A stretch of 28,359 nt of DNA from a virus. Below the pieces are notes generated by a model that did no database searches, was not told the DNA's origin, and saw only the letters and a program-made list of their open reading frames with translations. The first letter of the stretch is position 1. Every line of letters starts with the position of its first letter. Both the position numbers and the translations under genes were made by a program. Location of the stretch: positions 1 to 28,359 of IMG/VR virus record IMGVR_UViG_3300025102_000205; one strand, 5' to 3'. Below, piece by piece: positions 1,477 to 25,253 of the stretch.

Positions 1477-1519
1477 AGATTAGGAGAGGAATCGAACCTC
1501 TCCATGTTCCAAACTAATC
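1477..1519 (-). ncRNA. tRNA-like minihelix (acceptor stem plus T-arm, no D or anticodon arm)
   Basis: On the minus strand the element reads GATTAGT, an 11-nt linker, then T-stem AGAGG, loop TTCGATT, stem CCTCT, then CCTAATC and T. The loop matches the tRNA consensus (G53, T54 T55 C56 R57 A58, C61) exactly. GATTAG pairs with CTAATC as an acceptor-like stem, with a seventh T/C mismatch. There is no D-arm, no anticodon arm and no encoded CCA. It starts on the last base of the upstream stop codon and lies inside an operon. It could be a tRNA remnant, an attachment-site fragment or a transcript-processing signal (RNase P cleaves minimal acceptor/T-arm substrates). Its RNA nature is inferred from the fold. 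Confidence 0.55.
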
Positions 1520-3418: not shown

Positions 3419-5032
3419 ATGAGTGCACAAGGCTATATACCCAAAGACCTAACTTTTGATGAAGAAGGTCGTAAACAATTAATCCAAGGAATTACTGCAA
3501 TATCTAAAGCTGTTAAAAGTACGCTTGGCCCACGCGGTCAGACTGTATTAATAGAATCTCCCGATCATGTTGGTGGAATTACAGTAACTAAGGATGGGGT
3601 AACTGTAGCTAAGTCTATATTCTTAGACAACCCAATAGAAAACCTAGCCATACAAATGATGAAGGATGCAGCGACTAGAACTGCTAACTCTGCAGGTGAC
3701 GGAACAACTACTGCAATAGTATTAACTGAAGCTATAGTAAATGCAGGACAAGAACTTTTAAAAGAAGACCATAACATTACTGAGGTTATTAAAGCAATCA
3801 ATAAACATTGCGATAAAATAATTAGTATGTTAGAAAAAGATGCCAAGAAGATTACTCCAGAAACCCTGCTAGATGTTGCAACAATATCTGCCAACAACGA
3901 CAAAGAGATAGGTAAGATAATATCTGATGCCTATAAAAAAGTTGGTGCTAATGGGATAGTTACTGTAGAAAAATCACAGAACCACGAGACATATGCTGAG
4001 GTCACTAATGGTATAAAAGTAGATAGAGGATACTCCTCACCTATGTTTTTAAATAATCATCGTAAAGATGAGTGTGTGCTTGAAGATGTCTTGGTGTTAG
4101 TGTGCGATATTGGTATTGATAACATCCTACAAATTGAGAATGTATTGAAACCAATCATACAACAAAATAAAAAATTACTAATCATAGCTCCATGTTCTGA
4201 CAATGTAGTCAACACTCTTGCGGCCAATGTGGTTCGTAATAATTTAAAACTCTGTACTATTCTGCCTCCACAGTTTGGGTATAAAAGTCATGAGCTGATG
4301 CAAGATATAGCATTCGCGGTCGGAGCAAAAATATTTTCAGAACAAACTGGAGATGATTTGAGTTTAATAAACATGAACGATCTGGGACATGTAGATAAAA
4401 TAATAGTTGGTAAAGATTCAAGTGTGTTGATTAAAGATGCAGACATAAGCGAAGCAACACTAAACAGAATAGAAGAACTTAAAGAACAACAAAAAAACAT
4501 GACAATTAAAAGCGATAAAGATTTTATAAACGAAAGAGTTGCAAGTCTAGCTGGAGCTATTGGGTGTATATATGTTGGAGCTAATAGCGACGTTGAGCAA
4601 AAAGAAAAATTTGACCGAGTCGATGACTCGGTATGCGCGGTGCGCAGCGCCTTACAAGAAGGCATTATTCCTGGCGGAGGACTAGCACTATTTAATTGTG
4701 CACAATTTTTAAGGGAATATATTAAATCCTACAAGCCATTTCAAAACGAGCCTAACATACAAGTAGCTGGTGAGATATTATCACAAGCAATACAAGTTCC
4801 ATTGAAACAAATTATTATTAATGCAGGGAAAGATGTGGCTGAGATAATTAGTAAATTCAAACACATGGGGGGTAATATAGGATACGATGTAAAAAATGAA
4901 GATGTAGATGATATGTATGTGTTAGGTATAATCGATCCACTAAAAGTAACTAAGAACGCACTGGTTAATGCAGTGTCTGTTGCCACTACAATACTTTCTA
5001 CTAATGCAATCATAACACATAAACGAGCATGA
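3419..5032 (+). CDS. groEL: Phage-encoded chaperonin GroEL (Hsp60, group I)
   Basis: 537 aa, full length for the family (E. coli about 548). It would form the ATP-driven folding ring in the host cytoplasm with GroES as lid. Family motifs are in order: LGPRG (36-40), TKDGVTVAK with the nucleotide-site Asp59, GDGTTTA (93-99), ATISANND (154-161), the apical start DRGYSSPMF (202-210), LLIIAP (253-258), RVDDSV with the ATP-hydrolysing Asp403 (E. coli D398), PGGG (418-421), and DPLKVTKNALVNAVSVA near the end. The C-terminus stops at THKRA, so the flexible GGM tail of most bacterial GroELs is missing. It is much diverged from host-type sequences, as expected for an old phage gene. It has its own promoter and overlaps groES by ATGA. 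Confidence 0.97.
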   Translation: MSAQGYIPKDLTFDEEGRKQLIQGITAISKAVKSTLGPRGQTVLIESPDHVGGITVTKDGVTVAKSIFLDNPIENLAIQMMKDAATRTANSAGDGTTTAIVLTEAIVNAGQELLKEDHNITEVIKAINKHCDKIISMLEKDAKKITPETLLDVATISANNDKEIGKIISDAYKKVGANGIVTVEKSQNHETYAEVTNGIKVDRGYSSPMFLNNHRKDECVLEDVLVLVCDIGIDNILQIENVLKPIIQQNKKLLIIAPCSDNVVNTLAANVVRNNLKLCTILPPQFGYKSHELMQDIAFAVGAKIFSEQTGDDLSLINMNDLGHVDKIIVGKDSSVLIKDADISEATLNRIEELKEQQKNMTIKSDKDFINERVASLAGAIGCIYVGANSDVEQKEKFDRVDDSVCAVRSALQEGIIPGGGLALFNCAQFLREYIKSYKPFQNEPNIQVAGEILSQAIQVPLKQIIINAGKDVAEIISKFKHMGGNIGYDVKNEDVDDMYVLGIIDPLKVTKNALVNAVSVATTILSTNAIITHKRA

Positions 5033-7017: not shown

Positions 7018-7293
7018 ATGCCTATAGCAAGAACCACAGGCAAAGGAGGTAACTACAGAAAAACATCATCTGGTGCGGGTATGACTGCTAGAGGGGTGGC
7101 TGCATACAAAAGAGCTAATCCTGGTTCAAATCTCAAAACAGCTGTAACTGAAAAGAAACCTAGCAAGATGAGATCAAAAAGAAGAAAGTCTTATTGTTCT
7201 AGGTCTGCAGGTCAAATGCGTATGCACAATATAAATTGTTCTAAGACTCCAGACAAAAGAATTTGTGCAGCACGTAGACGCTGGAGATGTTAA
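7018..7293 (+). CDS. Basic, Cys-containing small phage protein (91 aa)
   Basis: Begins MPIARTTGKGGNYRKTSSGA, then GMTARGVAAYKRANPGSNLKTAVTE, and ends with YCSRSAGQMRMHNINCS and KTPDKRICAARRRWRC. The layout G(M/L)T.(K/R)G...Y.R.NPGS.LKTAVT ... (F/Y)C.RS.GQM ... C...R(R/K)W.C is a conserved phage small-protein pattern that I recall without a known function (possibly the family labelled DUF6321, unverified). Four cysteines near the C-terminus (YC, NC, IC, RC) could make a zinc knuckle. Two bases separate it from the previous stop. Confidence 0.8.
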   Translation: MPIARTTGKGGNYRKTSSGAGMTARGVAAYKRANPGSNLKTAVTEKKPSKMRSKRRKSYCSRSAGQMRMHNINCSKTPDKRICAARRRWRC

Positions 7294-10456: not shown

Positions 10457-10860
10457 AAAAATTATTTGCAAAAATGTTTGGTGGAGCAGGAGTCTCTATC
10501 GCAGAAAAATTAGGCGGAGTAGTTGATAAATTTGTTAGGACTAAAGATGAAAAGGCAGAGTTTGAAAAACAAATGACGGAGATTTTTATGTCTCATGAAT
10601 TAAGTTTAGAAAAAGAAATCACATCACGTCATGCCGCAGACATGCAATCAGATTCATGGCTCTCGAAGAATATACGTCCCTTACTTACTATTTTTAGCTT
10701 AATATTATATACATTATTTGCTATCTCAGATGGTAATATAGGTGAGTTTAATATAGCAAATCAGTATGTAGATTTGCTTGGACAAATTGTAATAATGAGT
10801 TTAGGTTTTTATTTTACTTCTCGAGGTATTGAAAAAACTGCAAAGATTTGGAGGAAATAA
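10453..10860 (+). CDS. Holin of the three-TM type (holin_3TMs)
   Basis: 135 aa. A cytoplasmic helical N-terminus (MKKLFAKMFGGAGVSIAEKL, then DKFVRTKDEKAEFEKQMTEI) precedes WLSKNIRPLLTIFSLILYTLF, the first strong membrane segment (about 77-92), a short loop and the second segment QIVIMSLGFYFTSRG (about 108-123), ending GIEKTAKIWRK. The SKNIRPL...(Y/F)GFYF.SRGIEK layout is that of phage 3TM holins. It would form holes or depolarise the membrane so that the amidase, encoded by the overlapping upstream gene, reaches the wall. Assignment by motif and context, fairly secure. Confidence 0.85.
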   Translation: MKKLFAKMFGGAGVSIAEKLGGVVDKFVRTKDEKAEFEKQMTEIFMSHELSLEKEITSRHAADMQSDSWLSKNIRPLLTIFSLILYTLFAISDGNIGEFNIANQYVDLLGQIVIMSLGFYFTSRGIEKTAKIWRK

Positions 10861-24462: not shown

Positions 24463-24687
24463 ATGGACATCCGTAAGATTTCCATAGGAGCAGATTACAA
24501 GTCTGGTGCCATGCATTATATTGTAGGGCAAAGTGTTTTAGGAGGTTCATATGTTATTCATTTAATACAACACGACGCCTCTTCTAGTTCATTTAAAATA
24601 TGGATAGAAAAGAATCAAGAGTTAATTATGTGGAAAGAGTTTAAAAACACAATGCCCATTTCTGTAGAATATAATTTAAACTTTTAA
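24463..24687 (+). CDS. Conserved small phage protein (74 aa)
   Basis: MDIRKISIGADYKSGAMHYI then VGQSVLGGSYVIHLIQHDAS and a strand pair FKIWIEKNQELIMWKEF, ending MPISVEYNLNF. The pattern MDI.KI.IG.DYKS.AMHYIVGQ.V..G.Y.IH.I.......(Y)KIWIE......WKEF...MP.S.EYN..F is recurrent in marine Bacteroidota phages, from memory. It is compact, probably all-beta, function unknown. It overlaps the next gene by one base (TAATG), which couples it to the GroES-like protein and the packaging genes. Confidence 0.75.
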   Translation: MDIRKISIGADYKSGAMHYIVGQSVLGGSYVIHLIQHDASSSSFKIWIEKNQELIMWKEFKNTMPISVEYNLNF

Positions 24688-25253
24688 TGCAGTCTCCACA
24701 TTCTTTCATAGTTCGACCAGTAAAAGGAAGAAGGTATGACAATATAAAAGACATAGGTGGTATTGACTTTATAACTAGCGTTTCTAAAGAGGACCACAAA
24801 GCATCGAACAGACAAGCAGAAGTTGTGTCTACACCATTAAATTATTCTGGAGATATAAAAAAGGGCGATATACTATTAGTTCACCACAATGTTTTTAAAT
24901 TTTATTTTGACATGAAGGGTAGAGAAAAAAGTGGTAAAAGTTTTTTTAAAGAAGATTTATTCTTTATTGACAACGATCAGTTTTTTTTATATAACAAAAA
25001 AGGTAAATGGTATGGTCATGATAGATATTGTTTTGTAAAACCTATTCCAAAAAAAGATTTTTATTTAAAAGGTGTTGGTGTTAAGGAAGAACCTTTGCAT
25101 GGTGTAATAAAATACTCTAACAAACAATTAGAACAATTAGGTGTGAATGAAGGCGATGAAGTCTGTTTTACACCTGATAGTGAATATGAGTTTTATGTTG
25201 ATGATGAAAAATTATATCGTATGTTTACTAATAACATAGCATTAACATTATGA
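24687..25253 (+). CDS. Tandem GroES-like (chaperonin-10-like) protein
   Basis: 188 aa that reads as two GroES-like halves. The first: SFIVRPVKGRRYDNIKDIGG followed by IDFIT, resembling the GroES opening and mobile loop (IRPL..RV...(E)....GGI(V)LT), then AEVVSTPLNY...GDIKKGDILLVHHNV. The second: YCFVKPIPKK (about 114-123), GVIKYSNKQLEQLGVNEGDE, VCFTPDSEYEFYVDDEKLYR and MFTNNIALTL, close to GroES G.V...G......VKVGD.V.F.....(E).......E....(E)SDI.A. It differs from the canonical groES encoded at 5029. It may be a lid for GroEL, a GroES decoy, or a virion or assembly factor with the fold reused. The fold call is by pattern and not searched. Confidence 0.6.
   Translation: MQSPHSFIVRPVKGRRYDNIKDIGGIDFITSVSKEDHKASNRQAEVVSTPLNYSGDIKKGDILLVHHNVFKFYFDMKGREKSGKSFFKEDLFFIDNDQFFLYNKKGKWYGHDRYCFVKPIPKKDFYLKGVGVKEEPLHGVIKYSNKQLEQLGVNEGDEVCFTPDSEYEFYVDDEKLYRMFTNNIALTL

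Follow-up and report, generated by a model that had tools for sequence, protein, structure and literature searches.

Between two co-directional genes of a virus genome lies a short stretch that folds like the acceptor stem and T-arm of a tRNA and lacks an anticodon arm. This raises the question of what kind of RNA it is, and what it may do within an operon. The genome record, called the window below, comprises 28,359 bases and is assigned to a large, podovirus-like group of marine phages. The most similar terminase is that of Podoviridae sp. ctfjg026 (MW202828; 72.6% identity), followed by those of the Flavobacterium Elemovirus and of Cellulophaga phages.

Anatomy and surroundings of the element

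The minus strand reads, from position 1520 to 1477, AGATTAG-TTTGGAACATG-GAGAGG-TTCGATT-CCTCTC-CTAATCT, followed by C, giving an element of 44 nt (Table 1). The GATTAG/CTAATC stem and the T-loop consensus bases described in an earlier sequence-only reading are present on this strand, and the element indeed begins on the TAG stop codon of the upstream gene, whose 185-residue product had no match in Pfam or PHROG. The acceptor stem, previously taken to be 6 bp long, extends to 7 bp through A1520-T1477, and the T-stem has 6 bp instead of 5. The linker TTTGGAACATG has the stated length of 11 nt, and an anticodon arm is missing as claimed. However, the D-arm that had been declared absent is there in reduced form: the linker holds a mini D-arm of 2 bp, whose pairs covary in relatives and whose UGG corresponds to G18 G19 in the tRNA D-loop.

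Table 1. Coordinates of the mini-tRNA element, its parts and its neighbours in the window.
Feature	Position	Strand	Remarks
Upstream gene, 185 aa	1519-2076	minus	element begins within its TAG stop
83-nt island	1443-1525	minus	2 variable positions among three related phages; flanks ~76-81% identity
Mini-tRNA element, type A	1477-1520	minus	acceptor 7 bp, mini D-arm 2 bp, T-arm 6 bp, anticodon arm absent
Acceptor 5' strand AGATTAG	1514-1520	minus	pairs with 1477-1483; overlaps TAG stop of upstream gene
Mini D-arm TT-TGG-AA (RNA: TT-UGG-AA)	1507-1513	minus	2 bp, inside linker
T-arm GAGAGG-TTCGATT-CCTCTC	1484-1502	minus	6-bp stem, consensus loop
Acceptor 3' strand CTAATCT	1477-1483	minus	partner of 5' strand 1514-1520
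C right after acceptor	1476	minus	C in 37/39 elements; outside covariance model
Second hairpin TGCA-ATAA-TGCA	1462-1473	minus	downstream of element
Downstream gene, 91 aa	1165-1440	minus	ATG 36 nt past element end

Known kinds of tRNA-like gene do not account for the site. A functional tRNA gene was rejected because the 11-nt linker takes the place of the anticodon arm and because both ARAGORN, proposed as a check in the sequence-only reading, and Rfam were negative in the window. Neither program found a tmRNA there, the sole trace being a T-arm match of 10.7 bits, far below threshold.

Thermodynamic folding of the strand alone gave a mixed picture. In a 57-nt segment the acceptor is not part of the minimum free energy (MFE) structure. 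In a 45-nt segment the MFE structure is the acceptor plus T-arm with the junction pair shifted (-13.1 versus -12.4 kcal/mol for the target fold). The case for structure is carried by covariation, not by folding energy.

Elsewhere in the window, a non-coding block of 76 nt (positions 2551-2626; TAATTCAGTCGGTGAGGGGGTTAAGGGAAGGC...) separates divergent operons and is identical in two relatives, over 76 and 75 nt. Positions 3419-5032 and 24687-25253 hold a phage GroEL and a GroES-like co-chaperonin.

Conservation of the fold across phages

In the two nearest relatives the element lies inside the 83-nt island (Table 1). The island alone is weak evidence, because the relative L003 shares ~92% identity with the window as a whole. 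These 83 nt are spanned by an open frame, but a coding reading was rejected, as no synonymous change was seen and the frame relation to the neighbouring genes is not the same in the window and in L003. The motif ACTATAG before the element was likewise discarded as a T7-like promoter, being frequent in coding sequence and unlinked to gene starts. Stronger evidence comes from more divergent phages. Two of these, L113 and L120, have a homologue of the 185-aa protein (35% identity in L113), followed by GGTATG CATGGTGCATTG GGGAG TTCGATT CTCCC CATACC. Here, place and fold are those of the window and the sequence is different.

An alignment of 14 sequences (A4) was used to build a covariance model, which yielded 40 matches in IMG/VR phages, 37 of them distinct (A5). 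The counts from both alignments lean towards structure, because A4 was chosen partly on acceptor pairing and A5 was aligned to the model; read with this in mind, 97.2% of cells are paired in A4 (65.7% when shuffled) with 55 versus 14 double-change cells, and 97.2% are paired in A5 (62.9% when shuffled) with 162 versus 39 double-change cells and a covariation score of 0.866 versus 0.206. When the pairing partners were slid along the 37 elements as a control, the signal was lost every time. In A4 an N stands in for one missing base; the acceptors were mis-registered in an earlier MAFFT alignment (A3). The window element scores 61.3 bits with covariance model R1, to whose training set the window belongs.

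The signal extends over all parts of the fold. Double changes occur at 6-7 of the 7 acceptor pairs in relatives and at 4-5 of the 6 T-stem pairs, the T-arm being paired in 98.6-100% of cells, and the T-loop TTCGANY is almost invariant across elements. The two pairs flanking UGG are complementary in 29 of 29 elements (shuffle p 5e-5), with eight distinct combinations (TT/AA, CT/AG, CA/TG, AA/TT, AT/AT, TA/TG, TA/TA and GA/TC); this mini D-stem was noticed afterwards and played no part in the choice of sequences. A second hairpin of at least 4 bp begins within 8 nt past the element in 29 of 39 cases, compared with 12.3 expected, and its pairing is kept while its sequences vary. The covariance check on related phages thus bore out the sequence-only reading, in that stem pairing is maintained through double changes. 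The element is conserved as an RNA structure with a tRNA-like fold, and that of the window is one member of an RNA class that appears to be undescribed.

A strict acceptor and T-arm descriptor finds the site in the window and nothing in 200 shuffles of it. In 0.94 Mb of related phages, a descriptor of the same kind returned 28 sites, compared with 2 in reversed and none in shuffled sequence; these comprise 8 true tRNAs, about 17 anticodon-less elements and a few weak AT-rich ones. When IMG/VR was scanned with letters of the linker and loop only (TGGNGCAYKGNNNNGTTCGANYC), 35 sites were obtained. The T-stem is paired in 18 of these, and 16 of the 18 have an acceptor of at least 5 bp, which was not part of the pattern. 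The pattern TTTGGAACA...TCGAT gave only chance matches in IMG/VR. BLAST of the region or of 44-mers against annotated phages returned short matches that are chance by E-value; inspection of these places led to elements in the phages Tiger and Endor1.

Placement in operons and putative role

All type-A elements are in sense orientation, and nearly all are within intergenic gaps. The next start codon is mostly 15-60 nt away, and the upstream stop codon can overlap the element or be more than 200 nt distant. Arrays occupy consecutive gaps of co-directional genes, with 7-8 copies in L349, 6 in L352, 5 in L357 and 4 in L341. Among cultured phages, the Streptomyces phages Endor1, Joe and Amela carry nine elements each and none on the other strand. 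In Endor1 all lie on the coding strand in gaps of the leftward operon; in Joe 8 of the 9 gaps of at least 75 nt are occupied, and in Amela 6 of 7. One Amela element lies inside an annotated gene, the start of which may have been placed too far upstream. Mycobacterium phage Tiger, likewise cultured, has a single element, directly past gp85. No type-A element was found in the scanned stretches of R4, phiC31, Bacteroides phage BF503P1 and Croceibacter phage P2559Y. Where the element occurs, it is in sense orientation and nearly always at the border of a gene.

In pre-tRNA, bacterial RNase P reads the coaxial acceptor/T-stem, the T-loop, the GG of the D-loop and the C after the stem, and RNase Z acts on acceptor/T-arm substrates. 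We propose that the element is probably a cis-acting minimal tRNA mimic that is cut by host RNase P and/or RNase Z and punctuates polycistronic phage mRNA. Of the functions put forward in the sequence-only reading, a phage RNA processing signal is the one best supported, because the element recurs, is structured, is sense-oriented and punctuates intergenic gaps, and because it keeps the parts by which tRNA enzymes recognise their substrates and has no anticodon arm; cleavage itself is predicted. E. coli RNase P cuts synthetic substrates made of an acceptor and a T-stem/loop (PMC11143913), and bacterial RNase P recognises the T-loop and 3'-RCC, the anticodon arm being dispensable (PMC4975455).

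In the proposed process, the acceptor stem stacked on the T-arm would mimic the part of a tRNA that processing enzymes read, and the UGG of the tiny D-arm could dock into the T-loop. Host RNase P would cut on the 5' side and/or RNase Z on the 3' side, releasing a separate message for each gene. On the upstream mRNA, the 3' terminus would fall at or within the folded tRNA-like structure. The downstream mRNA would begin a few nucleotides ahead of a protective hairpin, which a short leader would connect to the start codon; the second hairpin, close to the new 5' end, could shield this message. The enzymes, the cleavage and any effect on stability or translation are what we infer.

The tight spacing to the start codon, together with the variable distance to the upstream stop and the common second hairpin, would also suit an uncleaved leader. 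Here, the mini-tRNA and the hairpin would form a stable structure before the start codon that aids ribosome loading or blocks nucleases, perhaps via a tRNA-binding protein (EF-Tu, a ribosomal protein or a T-arm modification enzyme). We regard this as unlikely, since a plain stabiliser needs neither a consensus T-loop nor a UGG mini D-arm nor the following C, all of which are kept across very different phages.

The multi-copy arrays bear on two further readings. As a decoy or trans-acting mini-tRNA, the excised RNA would bind the host CCA-adding enzyme, RNase P, SmpB or EF-Tu and thereby alter translation or confer resistance to tRNA-cutting defences. A decoy for CCA addition or aminoacylation was also among the suggestions of the sequence-only reading. 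Arrays would supply many such molecules, and in shape the element is similar to the tRNA-like domain of tmRNA and to minimal substrates of CCA enzymes. However, nothing would require a decoy to sit ahead of a start codon in almost all large gaps, and orthologous sites keep position, not abundance, so that we consider this role quite improbable. In the arrays, imperfect hairpins flank consecutive small genes, much as attC sites do in integrons. In a recombination or gene-cassette site of this kind (attC-like, or a tRNA-derived attP), genes and hairpins would move as modules. Yet the flanks show no consistent GTTRRRY core: by eye, the attC cores GTTRRRY / RYYYAAC are lacking and the flanks read GTTC or have no GTT. 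The T-loop consensus is kept instead, and all copies are sense-oriented. The tRNA-derived attachment remnant suggested in the sequence-only reading, an attP from the 3' end of a host tRNA, was abandoned, as the 5' strand of the acceptor, which an attP would not have, is present and covaries with its partner, copies recur in many gaps of a single genome, and a search of 84,980 bacterial and archaeal genomes gave no exact match to the 25-nt core of the window element. Overall, a recombination site appears very improbable.

Least probable, to the point of being barely credible, is a transcription terminator or attenuator without a U-tract. Stable GC-rich hairpins do occupy the gaps between genes, and terminators without poly-U have reportedly been described for the early region of phage phiC31. 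Against this, neither hairpin of the listed elements is followed by a T-run (by eye), a terminator requires no T-loop or mini D-arm, one in every gap would silence distal genes, and phiC31 itself showed no such element in the stretches scanned.

A wider scenario can be drawn, which we judge evenly poised. In this scenario, numerous dsDNA phages infecting Bacteroidetes, Actinobacteria and further hosts would either retain independently or share a minimal tRNA mimic of three helices that punctuates their mRNA gene by gene. They would borrow host RNase P/RNase Z to cut a single long early transcript into one message per gene, each with a 5' end protected by a hairpin. This would be a prokaryotic counterpart of mitochondrial tRNA punctuation, made of RNAs unable to decode, and a general route by which phages cut their own messages with the tRNA machinery of the host. 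It would also supply natural, phage-evolved examples of minimal RNase P substrates and account for a recurrent non-coding element that Rfam and ARAGORN miss or call odd tRNAs. The cultured phages Endor1, Joe and Amela make the processing reading directly testable.

Resemblance to known RNAs, and variant forms

The claim that no element of this kind had been described held for Rfam 15, where no family reached the gathering score, and for the open-access literature searched; the Endor1 genome paper does not mention the element. Already known are tRNA-like processing in mitochondria and RNase P substrates in general. In plant mitochondria, t-elements are non-decoding tRNA-like sequences at mRNA ends that are cut by RNase P and RNase Z and can set these ends (PMC11658184). 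Like them, the phage elements are tRNA-like folds beside genes in polycistronic transcripts, with no translational role and no encoded CCA; in contrast, they are 44 nt long, lack an anticodon arm, occur in phages and number up to nine per genome, with cleavage predicted. Mitochondrial tRNA punctuation similarly places one tRNA-like fold between neighbouring coding regions, cleavable there and predicted to be so in phages, but employs functional tRNAs, whereas the phage elements cannot decode.

The model RNase P substrates AT1 and pATSer, hairpins of acceptor, T-stem and T-loop, have nearly the same anatomy, including the 5' leader and the need for the T-loop. They are man-made, while the phage elements are natural and have an added mini D-arm. 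The tRNA-like domain of tmRNA shares the acceptor and T-arm, a reduced D-region with UGG and the lack of an anticodon arm; unlike tmRNA, the phage element has no coding domain and no encoded CCA, and that of the window has no G3-U70 alanine identity pair. The mascRNA of MALAT1, mentioned in PMC11658184, differs in being a human nuclear RNA present in single copy at a 3' end. We class the element as a putative tRNA-like processing signal. The consensus in the D- and T-loops hints that the motif descends from a tRNA.

Some tRNA annotations touch on the same subject. In Amela, ARAGORN calls a tRNA-Arg and a tRNA-Trp over two elements (7163-7245 and 10674-10764); in phage annotations, other elements may be concealed as false tRNAs by calls of this kind. 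A tRNA-Ala annotated in an operon of the Elemovirus MT497017 (10494-10570) has an unusually large anticodon loop and may be a tRNA-like element instead of a functional tRNA. In phiC31, Rfam and ARAGORN find an unannotated tRNA-Gly(ccc)-like gene between gp13 and gp14 (31424-31511).

Related forms retain the acceptor and T-arm and differ in the middle only. The linker is 1 nt long in L283 and L289, which therefore have no D-loop partner, and 14 nt in L252; L242, L185 and L288 contain an extra hairpin. The Camvirus elements, found by descriptor, score lower with R1 because their acceptors are shorter (5-6 bp) and their linker, around CGGCA, is another one. In L003, C replaces T54 of the T-loop. 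The stack of acceptor and T-stem varies from 11 to 13 bp, compared with 12 in canonical tRNA, and the invariant C is not strictly position 74, since it is the 13th or 14th base after the T-loop.

Larger folds were seen as well. In L286 (13465-13525) and L288 (G117 and G109), a variant with the acceptor AGCAACGG, two inner hairpins and a T-arm lies near a true tRNA and a second mini-tRNA element. In MW202828, two tandem tRNA-like folds follow the last gene of an operon (590-700), the second of which has an acceptor, a D-arm (CCCC-aaatggta-GGGG) and a T-arm without an anticodon arm; this pair precedes a terminator-like hairpin with a T-run, not a gene.
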